Origin: Ceratodon purpureus
Taxonomy: Eukaryota > Streptophyta > Bryopsida > Pseudoditrichales > Ditrichaceae
Length of the DNA stretch: 64,000 nt
NCBI GenBank assembly: GCA_014871385.1
Contig: CM026428.1
Location: 6,799,471 to 6,863,470 of the forward strand
Direction of reading: 5' to 3'
Each line of letters starts with the position of its first letter. Within the stretch, counting starts at the first letter, position 1. Of the stretch, positions 4,161 through 64,000 are shown piece after piece. The notes under the pieces were generated by a model that was not told the origin of the DNA, ran no database searches, and was given only the letters and a program-made list of their open reading frames with translations. The translations under genes and the position numbers were made by a program.

Positions 4161-5694
4161 CTAGACGGAGGCGTCGAGGCGGGGCTCGAAGGAGAAGCCG
4201 TCGACCATGCGGTGCTCGGCCATGGGGCAGCGCGGCAGGCGACGCCACACGCGCCGCGCCAGATCATACAGCAGCTGCGGCATGTTGCGCCCGCACATGC
4301 TGATCAGCACCAGATCGCTGTGACCGATGCACCGGAAGTAGGCGTCGTTGGCGGCGTCTTTCAGGAACTCCTCCAGTAGGCCGGGCGGCATGCGATCGAC
4401 TTCCTCCCAGACCAGTCTGGGCTGGTGGAGCTTCAGGATGCTGATGCTCTTGGCGGCGGTGGGATCCTCCAGGCGGCCGATGACGAAGATGGTGCCGCGC
4501 GACTGCACCAGGCCGTAGCTTTCGAAGGAGGAGGGGAGCGGGGCGTGGAGCTGAGACCAGGAGTGGGAGCGGAGGTCGTAGGTGGTGAGGCCGTGGGGCT
4601 CGTGGCAGCGCCAGTAGAGGGTGTCGTTGCAGAGGATGCCGGGCGGGTGGAGGGGGAAGTTGGGGGGCGTGTTGGACGTGATGGTCCAGGTGTTGGTGGA
4701 GGAGTCGAAGACTTCGGCGGTCGGGTAGCAGGCGCCGTAGGTGGCCCAGATGCCGGCGACCACGACTTTGTACTGTTGGGTGGCGCGGTCGATCACCATG
4801 CCGACTGGTTGGAAGAACTGGATGCGGAGCGTGGGAGGGAGCTTGCGCCAGCAGCGGGTGAGCGGGTTGCACACCACGACGCTGTCGCACTCGGCGGCGT
4901 AGTAGCACAGGAGCCCCCCGGCTGCTGCGACGTGGAAGCTGATTTGGCCCGGGGCGGAGGCGATCAGGAGCGGGATCGGGTGCCAGCAGTCCAGGGATGG
5001 GTTGTATGTGGCGGCCTCCCGGTAGTGGTCGTTCTTGAACATGAGGAACCATGGGCCTTGCGAGGGTACGTCGTAGCATTCGCGGAGGAACCCCGGGGAT
5101 TGCAGTAATTTGTTCCAGGTTTTGCAGACCGTGCGGAAGCGCAGGAAGCTTGGGATCGGCAGCCATGCCAGGATCTGCGCATTCAATTGTCCACTGTTTT
5201 CAGTCTGGGTACGTGGGTGATCAACATCTTCAGTTCGATATCAGAGCTTGTCGAAGCAGACGTCAAATGAAACTCAGGTTTTATATATGAAACATGAACT
5301 TAATTATTTAACCTAAACGCATTATTTCAAGCACACATGAATCCAATTCAGTAATTTGCAGAATGTATATGTGATGCAATGGCCAGAAACATGATAAGAG
5401 TTGAAGGACCCAGCCGTTTAGCAACAGTATTGGACTGTGATAAATTCCTCGGTGATGTTTTGTACCGGTCAGGGTTTTACGCCTCAGTAGTTTGGATGTT
5501 TTTTTATGAATGACGGCGGCATTTGCGGTTACGAGTGCTCATTCTGTACATACCTTTTCGATCAAGTGCGGCGGGAGGCTGCTCCACCGATCGGCATCCA
5601 AGTCGTCGTATTCATCAGGGGGGAGAGGTGAAGTGGTGTCCAACTCGTAGCTTGAACCACCCTCTCCTGCCTCGAACCTCTCGGAATTATCCAT
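4161..5694 (-). CDS. F-box/kelch-type protein, substrate adaptor of an SCF ubiquitin ligase
   Basis: Two coding exons were assembled: 5694-5554 (47 codons, ATG to a GTATGT donor) and 5174-4161 (after a TGCGCAG acceptor). Phase 0 is kept and the product is 384 aa. The F-box spans the junction, about residues 40-82: a WSSLPPHLIEK stretch from exon 1 continues into ILAWLPIPSFLRFRTVCKTW from exon 2. After it comes a beta-propeller-like region with spaced YNPS, CNPLTRCW and VFDSSTNTW blade motifs, and a VWEEVDRMP segment. This arrangement is typical of the plant FBX6/LEAF CURLING RESPONSIVENESS group, whose members bind SKP1 through the F-box and target proteins through the propeller. The large exon is strongly GC-rich compared with its AT-rich flanks. 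A start inside exon 2 would cut the F-box, so the two-exon model is preferred. Substrate unknown. Confidence 0.88.
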
Positions 5695-50813: not shown

Positions 50814-51746
50814 ATGGAGTGGAAGGGGTTTGCCGAGGGCGGTCTGGCGTCGATGATCGCCGGCTTCGCCACGCACCCACTCGACTTGATCAAGGTGCGC
50901 ATGCAGTTGCAAGGCGAGGCTGTCGCCGCGCCCGCTCTTGCCTTCGCACTCGACGGCCGACATGCTCCTGTGGCAGCTGTGGCTCGGCCGGGCCCGTTGG
51001 GCGTGGGATTGAATGTCGCACGATCTGAGGGCGTGCAGGCGCTCTACTCCGGTGTCTCTGCCACGCTGCTGAGGCAGTGCCTGTACTCATCGACTCGCAT
51101 GGGGCTGTACGAGTATCTGAAGCAGCAGTGGCGGGACGACACAGTGCACGGAGCCTCCGGGCTCCCCCTGCACAAGAAAGTCACCGCGGCGTTGGTCGCC
51201 GGCGCTGCAGGCGCCATTGTGGGCAACCCCGCCGACCTGGCCATGGTCAGGATGCAGGCGGACGGCAGGCTGCCCATGGCGGAGCGGCGGAACTACACAG
51301 GAGTCGGAAACGCACTGTCCCGGATGGTGAAGCAGGACGGTGTGTTGTCATTGTGGACAGGATCGGCTCCCACCGTAACGCGAGCCATGCTGGTGACGGC
51401 CGCGCAGCTGGCGACGTACGACCAGATCAAGGACACCATCACGGAGAATCGCCTGGTGCCCGAGGGGCTTGCGACGCAGGTGGTGGCGAGCTGCGGTGCT
51501 GGAGTGTTGGCTTCAGTGGCTTCGAACCCGATCGATGTGGTGAAGACGAGGGTGATGAACATGAAGGCCGCGGCCGGCGAAGCTCCAGCGTACCGAGGCG
51601 CTCTGGACTGCGCGGTGAAGACGGTGCGAGCTGAGGGGCCGATGGCTCTGTACAAGGGGTTCATTCCGACGGTGACTCGTCAAGGCCCGTTCGCCATCGT
51701 TCTGTTCCTGTCGTTGGAACAGATCAAGAAGGTCCTCGAGGGCTAA
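50814..51746 (+). CDS. DIC: Mitochondrial dicarboxylate carrier (DIC/UCP4-6 group of the SLC25 family)
   Basis: Single GC-rich exon, 310 aa, typical length for the family. Three repeats of about 100 residues each carry the carrier signature: HPLDLIKVRMQ (about 21-31), NPADLAMVRMQ (about 139-149) and NPIDVVKTRVMNM (about 238-250). Each is followed by a LYSG, LWTGSAPT or LYKGFIPT element. The second signature has Met in place of the usual Lys/Arg, as in other plant DICs. Plant DIC proteins exchange malate, oxaloacetate, succinate, phosphate and sulfate across the inner mitochondrial membrane. The start was chosen at the ATG that opens directly into the first helix (MEWKGFAEGGLASMIAGFA). Arabidopsis DIC genes are also intronless, so a lack of introns here need not mean retroposition. 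Confidence 0.93.
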   Translation: MEWKGFAEGGLASMIAGFATHPLDLIKVRMQLQGEAVAAPALAFALDGRHAPVAAVARPGPLGVGLNVARSEGVQALYSGVSATLLRQCLYSSTRMGLYEYLKQQWRDDTVHGASGLPLHKKVTAALVAGAAGAIVGNPADLAMVRMQADGRLPMAERRNYTGVGNALSRMVKQDGVLSLWTGSAPTVTRAMLVTAAQLATYDQIKDTITENRLVPEGLATQVVASCGAGVLASVASNPIDVVKTRVMNMKAAAGEAPAYRGALDCAVKTVRAEGPMALYKGFIPTVTRQGPFAIVLFLSLEQIKKVLEG

Positions 51747-56514: not shown

Positions 56515-57659
56515 GTTCTCTGTGCGCACCGACTCCGAACTAGCTCAAAAACTAAAGCAAGTCCTGCAATTCAAACAAAACGAGACATCCTTCAGTCACA
56601 TCACAACCTCAACCCAGGGAATCACCCCTCAGCATCAACTGAAGGCTGAACCACCGTTTAAAACCTCACCTAACACCAATATATCTAAAACCTGCTCATC
56701 GTCTACAAACAACTCAAATCACACAAACCGCACGTCCGCGCAAAGACCTCAATCCTACACAACTTCAAGAACAGAGCAATTTAACTCCGAAAAAGCCTCA
56801 CTCTCCTAGAACTCCAGAGCGTGTCCAGAAACAACATTAAAACCCGATCTCCAACAAAACCCTCCGAAACCCTAACCCTAGAAAACTAAGAAAATCCAAA
56901 ACCAAGACTCTCAAATTAAAACCCCAGAACACAGCAGCAAGAAAAACCTCACTACAACATCCAAAACAGTTAGGAACCCCCAATACATGCACCAAGCTCT
57001 CCAATCGAACGGACACAGTAATACAACAACAGCTGATCCCCCACTTCAGCAAGATTTTGCCAAAAATGCGAACGCACCATTAACCCCTGAAAACAAACGA
57101 AAACAACACAACCTAAACCCCGGCAACCATCACACCACCACAACGAAGAAACTCTTACCACGTCCGCGACGGAAAAATACGATTAGTTCCAGAAACTCCG
57201 CTTCCGGCCAGCCAACAAACCTCTCACTCAATCCACACAAACAACGCTTGCGCCTGCCCTATGGAGAAACTCTACATCACACCGGCGCAACCGAGCCAGC
57301 CACCAAACCCCGAACCCCGGACGCGAATCCCAATTGTCTCCACCAGGCTTGAAACGCTCACAGCAACCTCATCTCTGCACCGTTTTCCCTCCCGTTTGAG
57401 CCAGATGGTCCAGAATGGCATGCGCAGTGGAGCGGAGCGCGGCAAGTGCAACAAGGAGCCTCGAAGTTAGGTTGACAAAAGTTATGGATCGAAAGTGCAG
57501 AAGAGCGACAGCAATGCAATGCAATGCACAGACAACTTAACCTCCACGCAATCATTCATCGTCAGGCTGCAGCTCCGGAAACCGCCTCACTCCGAGCCTC
57601 TCTACTGGTCATAAGTTATGACACTATTGGTGTGAATAACAAAATACACAAATATGGTA
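56515..57659. other. 5' flank of the TSSC4-like gene
   Basis: CA- and A-rich sequence on the plus strand. Frames such as 56987-57352 carry no recognised motif. It presumably contains the promoter and leader of the minus-strand gene, possibly with a leader intron. Confidence 0.45.
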
Positions 57660-57758
57660 TTAGTGGGACCCGTGCCGTTGAGCACATTTTTCTAATAAAA
57701 AATAAAGAGAAATATAATAAATATATATAGTAAAAATAATAAAAATATGCGTATATAC

Positions 57759-57832
<74 letters not shown>

Positions 57833-57905
57833 CTCGGTTTGTCTCCTTGACGGATTCCAATGCTGAACGGTCGAGTGAGACAAATTGAGCTGTATTGTAA
57901 TATAG
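57660..57905 (-). mobile_element. Short non-autonomous Helitron (246 bp) abutting the large one
   Basis: Read on the minus strand it starts TCTATATTACAATA at 57905, the TC-type 5' end usual for plant Helitrons. It ends with GTGC TCAACG GCAC, then GGGTCCCACTAA and a host T at 57659. The last 24 bases are almost the same as those of the large Helitron. The interior is mainly an AT microsatellite (57764-57831). No coding capacity. Confidence 0.65.
57764..57831. repeat. (AT)n microsatellite, about 68 bp
   Basis: Uninterrupted alternating T and A within the short Helitron. Confidence 0.95.
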
Positions 57906-57932
57906 ACTAGTGGGACCCGTGCCGTTGAGCAC
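57906..57932 (-). terminator. Helitron 3' replication-terminus hairpin
   Basis: Five-base-pair stem with a six-base loop, 7 bases before the terminal CTAG. In rolling-circle transposition this structure is thought to signal the end of strand transfer. This is not a transcription terminator. Confidence 0.8.
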
Positions 57933-58094
57933 GTTGTCATTAGATTAATATTAAGGACTTTTAGAAACTCCAAAAAAGTTTATTAAAAAAAAATTAAAAT
58001 TAAATTGAATAGTATATATTTTTGGAATCGTAAATGGAAAAAAAGAAAAAAATCGTAAATTGAAATTTTGAAAAAAAAAAAAAAGATGAAATTT

Positions 58095-61000
58095 TCATTG
58101 CAACAGAACTTCTGGGTAAACAACATTAACAGTGTTGGACACCGTACTGTTTTGTGGAAGCAATGCTGAAATATGATTTGGAGAAGTTGCTCTTGAAAGC
58201 GCAACATATAACTGTCCATGACTAAAAACTGGGATTCTAATATCTAATCCTACATACTTTACAGATTGGCCTTGGGACTTGTTAATTGTCATGGCAAATG
58301 CCAATCGCACTGGAAACTGCCGCCTACTGAAATGGAATGGCAATGCAGTAGAAGAAGGAGTCAAAGAAATCCGTGGTATAAAAACATGCTCGCCTGCATG
58401 CGGACCGAAAAGTAAACGTGCTTCTAAAACACGGTGCGAAAACCGTGTGAGAACCATTCTAGCTCCATTGCAAAGTCCTTGTTTTGGAGCAAGGTTTCGC
58501 AATAAAATGATAGGACATCCAATTTTCAAATCAAGTTTTGACAATGGAATGCCAGACAAATCCAATGAGTTCAAATACTCAGATGGATATGCAGCATGAT
58601 TGTCTGCACCAGCTTCAACAGTATTCGAATCAGCGCTCCTAAAAGTTTCGAGATTGCCAGGAAAAGATTGCAAAATCTCCTTGTTGATTAAATCAACATC
58701 TGTATTGCGAGCACTTAATATTGTTCGATCTCGAAAATACTGATCTTCATGTAAAGACATGTCGTCAATGTTGTTGTAGATGTTGTCGATAAGACATCGA
58801 ATAGAGGAAACAATGTTAATCCAATTATGCAATTGAATCATATTGCAATTTGCGTCATCAAAATTAGAGCCATCGCCTACTTGTAATAGCCATTGAGCAA
58901 ATTCCCTATTTGCAAGAGATGCGTTTTGCAAACGCATATTGATGGAAAGGTTCATGATTCTAACATGTTGCCATATTGTAGATCGGCGAAGACACGCTCC
59001 AACAATTTGAGGTCTGGAACCTCTTGGAATAACCGGCAGGATCTGTCGAAAGTCACCTCCAAACACAACGGTAACACCCCCAAAAGGAGAATTTGAATCA
59101 CGAATGTCTCGCAGTGATCGATCCACTGCTTCTGCACAATGTCGGTGTTGCATAGGAACTTCATCCCAAATAATCAAAGAAGCCTCACGAAACACATCCG
59201 CATATTCAGAGTTTTTGTTAATAGTGCACATGGAAAATTCATCAACTTCAAAAGGAATTTTGAAAGTTGAATGAGCAGTGCGGCCTCCATGAAGAAGGAG
59301 AGCAGCAATTCCAGAAGAAGCAACACATAAAACAATTTTTCCTCTGCTTCGTACATTTGCAGTCACGATGTTGTAGAGGAATGTCTTCCCTGTACCAGCA
59401 GGACCATTAACAAAAAAAACCACACCAGACCGGTCTTCAATGGAACTGAGTATGGCATCATAACAATACCGTTGCTCTCCATTGAGTTGTGGTTCATGCT
59501 CCTGAACATAAAGTTCGAGGTCCTCACGATTCCATTGTAGTTGTTCATTGATGAATCGATTACCACGATGATGGGACCAATTTAGAGTTGGTATTGGCAT
59601 TGGGGGAAACAAAGAAAGGTTTCTGTTTGACTGCTCACGTAATATTTCATCAATGAGAAAAAGGCCAAAATCGTATACTTCTTCTTCACTCGGTTCAGAT
59701 AATCCATAGTGTTGGCGAAGACGATGACGTAAGTCATCACACAGATGAGGACGAAATCGCTGCCATAATAACTCAGGATGAGAAGGGTTGCATTCGGAGA
59801 GTATAACCACAAACAAATTGCGCAATGATGCACCGGTATGCATAATAGATGCTTCTTCTAAGCAATGAATCCACTCTCCATCATCTTGTAATAAGCCTAG
59901 AGCATTACAAGCATCTTTGAAGGTTCCATGTACAACTCCATTCACCGTTCGTAGATCTTCAAATGAGCGAGGCCCAGCAATAGTCGTTAGTAGAAGTCGC
60001 AGATAGAAACGTTCGCCTTCAGCTGGTCTTGCAAAATACAACCTACCGATAGCAAAGCCTCTTTCACGAATCTTCCATGTACTCTCCTGTTGTTTCCAAA
60101 CATAATGTTGGGGAAACTCTTGATATGTCAACCGACGGGCATTTTCATCTGTAGCACACATCCTAAAGAACTCTGTCAATCTGGTTCTTTGAACTTGGCC
60201 ACGATTCAAGACAGTGAGAGGGTCTTCGCGAGTATTAAAAATCACACGATGCATCCCTGGCAAATGTAAATGTAGCCTAACAACATTGGGATCTTCATCG
60301 TGCATCGTCATTTTGAGTAAACGTCGCACAGCCTCCGATGCTCCAATGTAACGTGCATCTAGGTATTGCTTGATCTCATCTTGTTCCTCCCCAATCCTCA
60401 AAGTAGCCCTATCATGACCTTTATAGATGTATTTATGGATATATTTAACTGCATGAACAGATGCACAAACTTCAATGTTAATATGGCAGTCATACTTTCG
60501 TGTCAAATCAGGGTTATAGGGAACAACATGGCTGTTGTTGAAGAAAAATCCGTGTTTTTCAAAATTGCGTCCATCATTGCGTCGACGATAAAGAGGGTAA
60601 CCATCTTGGTCCATTGCAGTTTGATCTTGGAAAGATTTAGGAAAGCGTTTTGTGCATTGTCCAGTCTCGTCAAGACACCGATCACGAGTACATGGTCCAT
60701 GGACCATGTGCTTTAGGACCATACCAAAAAGTTCAGGGTCCTCTTGTTCATTAGGGAACTCTGCACATACTATTCTATCAACTTGGCAAGGTTCTCTTAT
60801 CTTGTCTTCATTAGCAAGAAAGATCAGAAAGTGCATATGAGGCAAAGTCCGCTTTTGGAACTCAATGACAAAAACGTGGGCAACAGATTTTCCAAAAAAA
60901 TGCATCTTTCTGATATCAGCCATGAGTGCATTGCGCTTGAGTTCAAATACGCGCGCTACGATATCAGGCCGATCTGCTGCAGTTTGTCCAGGCAAAAGTG

Positions 61001-61832
61001 CTTCTTGTATCTCACGCCAATTGGGATTTGCCGTCATGGTTCCAAAAACATCTGGATGTTGAAAAAATTTGGTTATGGCCATGGAATCCTGAAACAATTC
61101 AAACATGTTCCGAGCACTACCAATGTGACTTGATGGAAGAATAATACGACGCCCCAAGTTTTCAAGATTCATGTTTCTTTCTCCATCATCTTGTAGTGCA
61201 TCAGCAAGGCCTTGATACAGATCGGCACGCAAATCCGATTGATTCATTCGGATATAGTTCAATCTATTTTGTTCGGTCGCAGCCCAAGCATCGACAATGA
61301 ATTGCTGAAATAACTTCCCACCACAAAGAATGGTAGAAAACTCTGAATTCCGTGGGAATAACCGAAAAGCAAAGTATTCTCTTTGGGTCAGCCGACCTTC
61401 ACCATTAGAATGGGTTAGACCTTCATGCCATCCAAGCTCCCCAAATGGAAATAACAGCACATAGTGCAATGGCAAGTAAGCAGGATGACACTCATTAATA
61501 CGTTCCAAGAAATGACCTTCCCCTCTTAGTCGAAGCACAATATCTCGTGTTCCTTGTGGTCGATCTTCCTCTCCAGGTATTAAAACAGCTATCTCACTGC
61601 CTGCCGGAAGATTGTAGCGTCTTCGATCCATTTCACCTTCAAAATGCAAATGCGCAACAACATTTGGAATTCTTCTACCACATTGTTGTTGTTCTTGTTG
61701 TTGTTCTTGTTGTTGTTGTTCTTGTTGTTGTTCGAACTCCATCATGATTTCATATGCTTGTTTGTAGTGTCTATGAAACGCATGATGAGTTTGTAATAAT
61801 GATTGAATCTCCAGCATAGTAGTTGAGTACAC
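58095..61832 (-). CDS. Helitron Rep/helicase (HUH endonuclease plus PIF1-like helicase), main frame
   Basis: Open for 1245 codons without a stop; the listed first codon is GTG and no host-type ATG context is evident, because the true protein begins in the adjacent upstream frame. Near residue 40 is a Gln/Glu-rich run coded by a triplet repeat (61680-61735). The Rep domain has the HUH motif LPHMHFLIF (about residue 330) and the two-tyrosine motif KYIHKYIYKG (about 464), the active site of rolling-circle nucleases. The helicase has Walker A GPAGTGKTFLYN (about 809), Walker B LIIWDEVPM, motif GGDFRQILPVI, and motifs V-VI TINKSQGQS and YVALSRA near the C-terminus. All catalytic residues looked for are present. 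Role: cuts and joins DNA during rolling-circle transposition, in the nucleus. Confidence 0.93.
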   Translation of the reverse strand: MYSTTMLEIQSLLQTHHAFHRHYKQAYEIMMEFEQQQEQQQQEQQQEQQQCGRRIPNVVAHLHFEGEMDRRRYNLPAGSEIAVLIPGEEDRPQGTRDIVLRLRGEGHFLERINECHPAYLPLHYVLLFPFGELGWHEGLTHSNGEGRLTQREYFAFRLFPRNSEFSTILCGGKLFQQFIVDAWAATEQNRLNYIRMNQSDLRADLYQGLADALQDDGERNMNLENLGRRIILPSSHIGSARNMFELFQDSMAITKFFQHPDVFGTMTANPNWREIQEALLPGQTAADRPDIVARVFELKRNALMADIRKMHFFGKSVAHVFVIEFQKRTLPHMHFLIFLANEDKIREPCQVDRIVCAEFPNEQEDPELFGMVLKHMVHGPCTRDRCLDETGQCTKRFPKSFQDQTAMDQDGYPLYRRRNDGRNFEKHGFFFNNSHVVPYNPDLTRKYDCHINIEVCASVHAVKYIHKYIYKGHDRATLRIGEEQDEIKQYLDARYIGASEAVRRLLKMTMHDEDPNVVRLHLHLPGMHRVIFNTREDPLTVLNRGQVQRTRLTEFFRMCATDENARRLTYQEFPQHYVWKQQESTWKIRERGFAIGRLYFARPAEGERFYLRLLLTTIAGPRSFEDLRTVNGVVHGTFKDACNALGLLQDDGEWIHCLEEASIMHTGASLRNLFVVILSECNPSHPELLWQRFRPHLCDDLRHRLRQHYGLSEPSEEEVYDFGLFLIDEILREQSNRNLSLFPPMPIPTLNWSHHRGNRFINEQLQWNREDLELYVQEHEPQLNGEQRYCYDAILSSIEDRSGVVFFVNGPAGTGKTFLYNIVTANVRSRGKIVLCVASSGIAALLLHGGRTAHSTFKIPFEVDEFSMCTINKNSEYADVFREASLIIWDEVPMQHRHCAEAVDRSLRDIRDSNSPFGGVTVVFGGDFRQILPVIPRGSRPQIVGACLRRSTIWQHVRIMNLSINMRLQNASLANREFAQWLLQVGDGSNFDDANCNMIQLHNWINIVSSIRCLIDNIYNNIDDMSLHEDQYFRDRTILSARNTDVDLINKEILQSFPGNLETFRSADSNTVEAGADNHAAYPSEYLNSLDLSGIPLSKLDLKIGCPIILLRNLAPKQGLCNGARMVLTRFSHRVLEARLLFGPHAGEHVFIPRISLTPSSTALPFHFSRRQFPVRLAFAMTINKSQGQSVKYVGLDIRIPVFSHGQLYVALSRATSPNHISALLPQNSTVSNTVNVVYPEVLLQ

Positions 61833-62476
61833 TCTGGATTACGCTCCATTCGAATGTTAGTTGCCTCAGTAGTATCAATAAAATAAAGTTGAGCATATTT
61901 GGGTGTTTCACCAACAGTAGGCAACAACGATCCACTCAGATGTCTTAATTCTCCTTGGAATTTAAAAACATAGGGACCATTTCCTGCAACGTATGTATTG
62001 GAAGTTGAAGTCCCAACAGAAGTAAACGCAAAGGCAGCATTGTATCTCCGGATATTTGTACGAAATTCTTTAGCTTGTTCGTTGTCACCTTCAAATAACT
62101 GGTGCAACCGTTGTGGAGGATATCGCAATAAAGGAAGGCTCACCTTGCCTTTTAGACAACAAGATCCAAATTGTGGATTTAGAGTACTTGAGGTTGTCAA
62201 TCTTTCATCACTCCAATGTAGTCCACGACAGTAAGTACAAACTCGATCCATGCGACCCAAATAATGAGGAGTCAAATCCATCCGCCCGCGTCTTCCTAAT
62301 CGTAACCTCTCCAAACGTACTTCATGTGCACCGCCATCTTCTCTGGCTCTGCTAGTTCTTCGTGCTGCACGTCGCCTCAATAACTGCTCATACATACTTT
62401 GACTTTGCACCTCGGCAACACCTCCAGCTCTATGGCTGTAAGGCAAAGTATCTTCTTCTACCAATGAATTGTCCAT
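61742..62476 (-). CDS. N-terminal part of the Helitron Rep protein, separated by a frame change
   Basis: Starts at a true ATG (62476) and reads into a C-x2-C...CC zinc-finger-like block (VCTYCRGLHWSDE... SCCLKGKVSLP), then RRYNAAFAFTSVG, YVFKFQGELRHLSGSLLP and YAQLYFIDTTEATN. These are the conserved N-terminal segments of Helitron Rep proteins. Near 61832 the expected continuation lies in the next frame (the 58095-61832 frame), so this frame's last 30 residues are out-of-frame readthrough. A one-base indel, a frameshift during translation, or a sequencing error would all explain it. Confidence 0.85.
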   Translation of the reverse strand: MDNSLVEEDTLPYSHRAGGVAEVQSQSMYEQLLRRRAARRTSRAREDGGAHEVRLERLRLGRRGRMDLTPHYLGRMDRVCTYCRGLHWSDERLTTSSTLNPQFGSCCLKGKVSLPLLRYPPQRLHQLFEGDNEQAKEFRTNIRRYNAAFAFTSVGTSTSNTYVAGNGPYVFKFQGELRHLSGSLLPTVGETPKYAQLYFIDTTEATNIRMERNPECTQLLCWRFNHYYKLIMRFIDTTNKHMKS

Positions 62477-63018
62477 TTTTCATGGACAAAATATATATAT
62501 ATATATATCACATAATCACCTGCATCATGTCAAATGTAATAATAAATAATATGAGCTAAAGGTATCAAATATATTTTTTTAATATTTATTTATAATAAAA
62601 ATTCTTAAAATACATCTAAACATTAGAAAAAAAATGAGGAATGTGACATACAGATACTTTTCAAGATATTTGGATAAATGTTATTGAATATCAAAATCTT
62701 TATTATCATTAATTCTTCAAGGTTATTTGAAGTTCAAAGAAAATGTGATGCTTATAATATGTATACATTGAGCTCAAAAACAATAAAATTAAAGGCATGC
62801 ATAATTTTCACTTCTAACATTCAAAACAACAATTTCAAAAATGATTTTCATCATTGGGATTGAAAAGACACAAATTCCAAAAAACCTTGCAATAGAATAT
62901 TGAGTTGATAGTCTAATAATTTATAGCAAAAAACAACAATATTTTATTTAAAACAAACGCTATACTATATAATAAACAGAAGGAAATAAACATGTAAAAG
63001 TCTTTTCAAACTACAACG
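62477..63018. other. AT-rich gap between two Helitron frames
   Basis: Contains an AT microsatellite at 62490-62508 and no recognised gene. It may be an intron or the promoter region of the Rep gene. Confidence 0.5.
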
Positions 63019-63642
63019 TCAAACAGTAATATCTTCTTCATCTGATTCTGGAACACGATCTAGCGATTGCGGCAACAAAGCTATAGCTTCTCGTACAGCA
63101 CGGCGATCCAATGGTATATTTCTATTCTGCAACGACCTAGCACGTTGTTCATCTTCAAGCCTTTGTCTACGAATATTAAGAGCAATAGCCCTATTTCGTT
63201 CTGATCGAGCTTGTTGCTCAATTCTGATTCTCTCCCTTGTTGCACGAATTGCCAATGCCGCATCTCTGTTTCGAATCATCCGTTGACGTTGAGAGTTTGC
63301 ACGTCGAACCAAAGCCTCTTGTCTGTTCATTTCCGACCGTAACAAAGCAAAATTTGGAATGGTCACCACATCACTCGAGGGAATTCCTTGATCCAACGGT
63401 GCAAGAAATGGCCCAATGGCGGAAAGATCTACATGATTTTGGGAGGGTTCAACTCCTCTGCCAACATCTAAGGCTGTAGATGAAGGAATAGAGTTTGGAA
63501 TCTCCAGGAACTCTGAAGCTAACAATGACCCTTGAGGTGACATAATCACGGACATTTGAGATGGTTGTTGTCGTTGTACTCGATCTCTAACCATAGAACG
63601 TAGAGCACGCACACTCATAGCTTCACGACGAAATCGATTCAT
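63019..63642 (-). CDS. Arg-rich Helitron-associated protein of unknown function
   Basis: From the ATG at 63642 the frame has 207 codons. It is strongly basic and built of imperfect repeats such as RRANSQRQRMIRNRDAALAI, then RATRERIRIEQQARSERNRA and IALNIRRQRLEDEQRARS. Similar Arg-rich repeat regions precede the Rep domain in some Helitron proteins, so this may be an upstream exon of Rep or a separate gene; no clear splice link was established. It ends acidic (ESDEEDITV). Confidence 0.55.
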   Translation of the reverse strand: MNRFRREAMSVRALRSMVRDRVQRQQPSQMSVIMSPQGSLLASEFLEIPNSIPSSTALDVGRGVEPSQNHVDLSAIGPFLAPLDQGIPSSDVVTIPNFALLRSEMNRQEALVRRANSQRQRMIRNRDAALAIRATRERIRIEQQARSERNRAIALNIRRQRLEDEQRARSLQNRNIPLDRRAVREAIALLPQSLDRVPESDEEDITV

Positions 63643-64000
63643 ATTGGTAAATGATATGAAAAAATGTCTTCTAAATATTCTGTAATTGAAAATGAAATCA
63701 GATAAAATTATCAATCTCAAATAAAATATTCAAAATCAAATCTCCAATAAATGTTTTACAATATTATATTAAAATGAAGTAAAAGTTTGTAAAGCGGTCG
63801 TTCGCAATCGTCCAAAGGTTTAAATACCTTCGGTCTATCCAACAACGTCCGTACAACCCACTCCCGGTACCATCCAAGAACTCAAATGCAATATGCACGA
63901 GTCCTAAAGACTAACCAGGAGTGGATTATAGTAAGAAATAAATAAAATGGTCCCAACTTCACACCAATTCGTAGAACTCCACAAAGGTCTGCAATGCCCT
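63643..64000. other. Right edge, probably inside the Helitron
   Basis: No gene recognised. The sequence from 63780 on is less AT-rich and may be leader sequence of the Helitron transcript. The Helitron 5' terminus was not seen. Confidence 0.4.

Follow-up and report, generated by a model that had tools for sequence, protein, structure and literature searches.

The question raised by this locus is how two Helitrons came to be joined head to tail, and whether the target choice of their family favours such joints. The stretch analysed (the window, 64,000 bp) corresponds to C8:6799471–6863470 of the Ceratodon purpureus genome, and further copies were searched for over the 362-Mb assembly. The larger Helitron is 10,300 bp long and runs from C8:6867676 down to 6857377, its TC end at C8:6867676 lying 4.2 kb past the window. 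The features of the two elements are the following.

57907..64000, minus strand: 3′ 6,094 bp of the 10,300-bp Helitron (window and genome coordinates)
63019..63720, minus strand: arginine-rich open frame of 233 aa, within the large Helitron and upstream of RepHel (no match in Pfam)
61742..62476, minus strand: RepHel gene, N-terminal portion lying in a different frame (comparison with the annotated P0001 and P0002)
58095..61832, minus strand: RepHel coding region with Helitron_like_N and PIF1 helicase (Pfam; 91% identity to C. purpureus P0001)
57907..57932, minus strand: 3′ terminus of the large Helitron, stem-loop GTGC/GCAC followed by CTAG (sequence, terminus search, folding)
57660..57906, minus strand: 247-bp non-autonomous Helitron, TC...CTAA with T behind (sequence, folding)
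57893..57906, minus strand: left end of the 247-bp unit, TCTATATTACAATA, TACA at offset 7 from the first T (14-mer search, target profile)
57832..57890, minus strand: 5′ subterminal hairpin common to the family (folding)
57759..57831, minus strand: (AT)n stretch with approximate limits, missing from the 106–111 bp minis (sequence, blastn)
57660..57685, minus strand: 3′ terminus of the small unit with CTAA end (terminus search, folding)

The large element is a canonical Helitron (Helitron1), having TC/CTRR ends, a 3′ hairpin approximately 10–12 nt from the end, an A|T insertion site and RepHel. The latter matched Helitron_like_N (E 6e-59) and PIF1 (E 2e-81) in Pfam, and the HMH motif and the two-tyrosine stretch were recognized by eye. 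RepHel of the window copy looks frameshifted near 61823–61832, because P0001 and P0002 continue as a single protein; annotated relatives represent copies of the family without this frameshift. Elsewhere in the window, Pfam identified an F-box/Kelch protein (4161–5186, minus strand) and a mitochondrial carrier (50814–51746, plus strand).

Direct reading of the window placed the last base of the large Helitron, which ends with GTGCTCAACGGCACGGGTCCCACTAG, at 57907 on the minus strand, and the small unit starts with the next base (TCTATATTACAATACAGC...). The minus strand thus reads ...CACTAG at 57907, then 57906 opens TCTATATTAC...CACTAA, which closes at 57660 and is followed by T. An earlier note on this DNA had described two Helitrons joined exactly head to tail, which proved right, as did its CTAA before T at 57660, while the CTAG end lies at 57907 instead of 57906, the TC start at 57906 instead of 57905, and the unit is 247 bp rather than 246 bp long. 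The matching termini it reported were also found: the 26-base ends of the unit and the large element differ only in the last base, and both 3′ stem-loops fold. With up to three mismatches allowed, this terminus occurred twice in the 64-kb window and never in 100 shuffles. The 14-mer of the unit's TC end had one exact occurrence in the window and 16 places at up to three mismatches, thus a loose match by itself has little meaning. That the TC end at 57906 arose by chance was ruled out by the larger copies and minis with the same TC start. The note had regarded a lack of other copies with the same TC and CTRR ends, or of larger family Helitrons with this TC start, as evidence against its reading; both were found in the genome, so neither of these results occurred. 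The 3′ terminus had no match among viral contigs, a set from which its own or near records may be absent.

Helitron families are delimited by 80% identity over the last 30 bases and subfamilies by 80% over the first 30. The unit and the large element agree in 27 of their last 30 bases, which places them in one family, and their first 30 bases (the left end of the large element being outside the window) agree in 23 of 33 aligned columns, below the subfamily level; compared with a mini of locus L026, the unit agrees in 23/30 and the large element in 27/31 positions. Nine further non-autonomous copies of 0.6–4 kb carry the first 93 bases of the large element at 89–95% identity and its last 61–323 columns at 86–100%. 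Sixteen minis found in 10-kb loci are 106–111 bp long and keep the left end, the 5′ hairpin and the 3′ terminus (their listing had 20 rows, including six non-minis, L010-7226, L011+7018, L014+2833, L019+2839, L021-1011 and L027+1602; two true rows were 2 bases too long and one too short). The window unit is, to judge from its sequence, a diverged mini with an AT-rich stretch in place of the short spacer. As the family minis are 106–111 bp, the 247-bp unit exceeds the minimal sequence set of the family, which the earlier note had thought it could show, and its AT microsatellite is extra. The proposed search for other such units returned no second one among 63 matches (40 of 395 candidates scored). 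Helitrons as small as 96 bp are described from silkworm in the part of PMC3789558 relevant here.

An A preceded all 23 free 5′ ends tabulated and, among 36 non-abutted minis, the start of 34, the other two being one altered end after G and one unreadable end. T followed 65 of 66 single sites (four termini were re-framed by eye). The exceptions to A|T are G|T at the joints and a decayed terminus with C behind (L021). Some copies have worn 3′ ends (TTAG in L010, CTGG in L050, CAAG in L051 and CTAC in L022). Hairpin strength, used as an age test, revealed no general difference between abutted and free copies (means −30.2 and −28.8).

Joints like that in the window recur. Forty left ends from genome loci and the window passed the pattern, of which 23 were free, all after A, and 17 were abutted, all directly after CTAG with no spare A between. 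These represent 14 joints once copies of one composite are merged, or 13 if L020, which resembles L015–L017 across the joint (195 bp at 92%), is not independent. Since the loci behind them were found with a joint-bearing query, they give no joint rate. The rate was taken from two flank-blind sets, one with 40 3′ ends from large or medium elements, for which 40 of 138 candidates were scored, and the other with 40 mini matches out of 45, the five omitted being array partners and a fragment (scored: 40 of 439 candidates). The 80 fetched 3′ ends yielded 79 flanks (L119 had no flank, L112 had no left end, and L114, with a doubtful terminus, was kept), among them seven joints and 66 independent single sites. 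Hence, 7 of 79 unselected 3′ ends run into another left end, five of 40 for large or medium elements and two of 39 for minis; CTAG stood directly before four of 40 blind minis, two of these from one composite. The genome contains approximately 65 million A|T sites (extrapolated from 53,430 counted on the two strands of about 298 kb), and the random expectation for insertion at a left boundary is the number of copies divided by 65 million.

Adjacent minis are 77% (L022), 85% (L023) and 80% (L024) identical, and the L026 array has a 99.1% identical pair followed by an 81% neighbour. As most measured neighbours are unlike, most of these joints look like successive insertions, apparently into the A|T formed by a host A and the first T of the resident copy, and the earlier note's suggestion of insertion at another copy's end is borne out as a route. 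Near-identical neighbours are what a rolling-circle tandem array would leave. Helraiser circles do have exact head-to-tail ends (PMC5876387, in part), and the 99.1% pair of L026 fits a rolling-circle dimer. The partners in the window, however, have only their ends in common, a 35-bp match at the termini in the window part compared by blastn, simple AT repeats aside, so that a concatemer of one element is a very improbable origin for this pair.

Insertion in front of a resident copy uses a canonical A|T site, whereas insertion behind CTAG needs G|T, an argument made for maize as well (PMC2267711, in the part on adjacent elements). The order in which the 247-bp unit inserted second, at a non-canonical G|T behind the CTAG of the large element, was considered there too, and since non-A|T insertions occur with Helraiser (46 of 1,751, as given in PMC4778049), the small unit could be the later arrival. 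The A in front of nearly all free 5′ ends of the moss family speaks against this order, which we regard as unlikely.

We consider it probable instead that two A|T Helitrons of one family with TACA-biased targeting met here, the 247-bp copy being the resident and the 10.3-kb copy having inserted at its start. The family transposase favours A|T sites in which TACA(AT) starts 6–7 bases behind the cut, a pattern present in its own left end. The 247-bp copy would have been in place first, the host A, its first T and TATTACAAT together making up a favoured site, and the 10.3-kb copy would later have landed precisely at this point, which produced the order host-A|TC...CTAG|TC...CTAA|T-host.

The pair may also have arrived together, as a composite joined elsewhere and transposed whole past the inner CTAG. 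Such moves did occur in the family: two composites transposed as single units, bypassing the inner terminus. One, of 425 bp, is present in both L010 and L011 (98.4% over a 429-bp match) with an inner CTAG|TC, outer TTAG and CTAG ends, respectively, and unrelated flanks. The other is the pair in L015, L016 and L017 (8.0, 8.0 and 8.9 kb), where L016 and L017 are 98.7% identical from the outer TC on through an intact CTAG|TC, and all three stop at the next terminus (CTAG, CTGG and CAAG in L049, L050 and L051) before differing flanks. Terminus bypass is thus directly visible in this family as joined pairs that kept both outer boundaries at several sites, and read-through past the inner terminus, the second route named in the earlier note, holds as well. 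For the window pair, no other place matched through the joint into the AT-rich part of the unit; the joint-bearing matches ended by base 129 of the 321-base query, and two longer ones (1–233 at 76%, 1–217 at 74%) were 3′ ends backed by (AT)n in L013 and L014 (40 of 395 candidates scored). Joint arrival is accordingly rather unlikely here, though slightly less so than the reverse order.

A decayed terminus lies 79–80 bases before the working one in the second partner in L049–L051 and in the element ending in L052, and the coordinates of L021 agree with this pattern, which has the appearance of an earlier replacement of the terminus. The stretch between the decayed and working termini (L049 196–301, L050, L051 minus strand, L052 minus strand 2141–2220) opens with TCTACTACAATG, which is left-end-like or target-site-like.

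The targeting part of the preferred reading was examined on the 66 single sites. The TACA motif had been set from earlier flanks before the blind test, and because some blind loci had been seen earlier, never-seen loci were counted separately. TACA stood at offset 5–7, that is, 6–8 bases into the target, in 31 of 66 sites (47%) versus 1.6% of A|T sites, at offset 6 in 23, at 7 in seven and at 5 in one case; among never-seen loci, 15 of the 33 minis and 7 of the 15 large elements had it. TACAA occurred in 18 of 66 flanks (45-fold over A|T sites) and TACAAT in eight (0.2% of A|T sites, 61-fold). TATAA at the offset of TACAA appeared as a second target form (11/66 versus 0.8% of A|T sites, 22-fold). 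The motif could be a by-product of a preference for AT-rich DNA that melts easily, left ends then resembling the targets only through their own AT-richness. Helraiser prefers AT-rich flanks, chiefly on the 3′ side (PMC4778049, in the section on target sites), and (AT)n is found at several moss flanks. Nevertheless, TACA was also the best 4-mer de novo, its 31 occurrences exceeding the maxima of 13 in 500 A|T-site draws and 15 in 500 own-composition shuffles; moreover, it includes a C and at any other offset occurs in at most one of the 66 sites, which makes such an origin improbable.

The early sets of 13, 16 and 17 flanks, in which the motif was partly noticed, are suggestive only. ACAA was present in 6 of 16, a level reached by none of 1000 draws, and in 6 of 17, equalled by 9 of 2000 A|T draws and 225 of 2000 own-composition shuffles; further tests on the 17 gave p values from 0.0003 to 0.07. 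Twenty flanks (L029–L048; ACAA at offset 6–8 in 8/20) were left unused because the query contained the left end of the unit, and five flanks of the L013, L014, L027 and L028 matches were omitted for a like reason.

The left end TCTATNNTACAAT carries TACA too, and family left ends have TACAA at offset 7, so the TACA peak in targets (offset 6) is one base nearer. Scored against the target profile, three left ends fell within the best 0.06%, 0.6% and 2.5% of A|T sites, respectively, the last being that of the window unit. Permuted left ends matched the flanks equally well with p 0.01–0.03 (31 large-element flanks) and 0.026–0.07 (the earlier 17), modest values that make the match to the left end specifically weaker than the motif itself. 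With TACA in both targets and left end, resident copies are good targets. We lean toward the view that the transposase reads the target (A|T with TACAAT about 6–7 bases in, as in TCTATNNTACAAT) by its left-end contacts, target and left end being bound by the same part of the protein, and that the family would thereby home onto its own starts. If so, resident copies would rank among the best targets of the genome, leading to head-to-tail chains by which the family could add or swap 3′ termini and move composites. If targets and the nicking end of the element have a motif in common, recognition of the target and of the origin would be linked, and clustering, nesting and head-to-tail joints would have a simple explanation. 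The motif alone is probably not enough for all joints: unless the copy number is very high, a 30- to 60-fold preference seems too low to yield joints at about 9% of 3′ ends, and local insertion, the 5′ hairpin or more extended matches may contribute.

Head-to-tail Helitrons are already known. In maize AF466202, unlike adjacent Helitrons meet as CTAG then TC with a G/T junction, and two order models were put forward (Du et al., 2008, PMC2267711). The moss pair is alike in all these points, but the maize case is one pair, whereas the moss family has recurrent joints and a left-end-like target motif. The tandem Helitrons of Myotis (Pritham and Feschotte, 2007, via PMC2267711 and PMC5876387) share the perfect head-to-tail form with no host A between; they were interpreted as rolling-circle repeats, while most measured moss neighbours differ. 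Nesting, self-insertion and inner-terminus bypass are found, as in the moss, in multi-terminus Helitrons of maize (PMC3288121, which cites a preference for landing near or in other Helitrons) and in Fusarium FoHelis (PMC5148889), although the parts of these two papers considered describe no left-end-like target motif. Helraiser/Helibat (PMC4778049, PMC5876387) and wheat Xuan-Feng (PMC13286980) have the TC...CTRR ends, 3′ hairpin and A|T target of the moss family, and Helraiser reads through its own right end (PMC4778049, PMC5876387); the target is A|T with AT-rich flanks for Helraiser and A|T for Xuan-Feng, neither with a fixed TACA in the relevant sections. Target choice of Helitrons is usually given as A|T in AT-rich DNA. 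Literature searches combining Helitron, moss and Ceratodon purpureus found no paper, and those on Helitron target choice and nesting found no left-end-like motif in titles or opening lines of abstracts, and the term TACAA is absent from three papers on the subject; a motif common to targets and the element's own left end is not described in the literature so covered.

Other arrangements were also seen in the family. In L013 (3358–3539), two Helitrons stand tail to tail, separated by 180 bp of mostly (AT)n. Identical 3′ flanks were found behind L033 and L034 (C6:83.98 and 83.84 Mb; C6 being the V chromosome to judge by a locus tag) and behind L066 and L068 (C7:18.62 and 18.53 Mb), and these are therefore probably local duplications.
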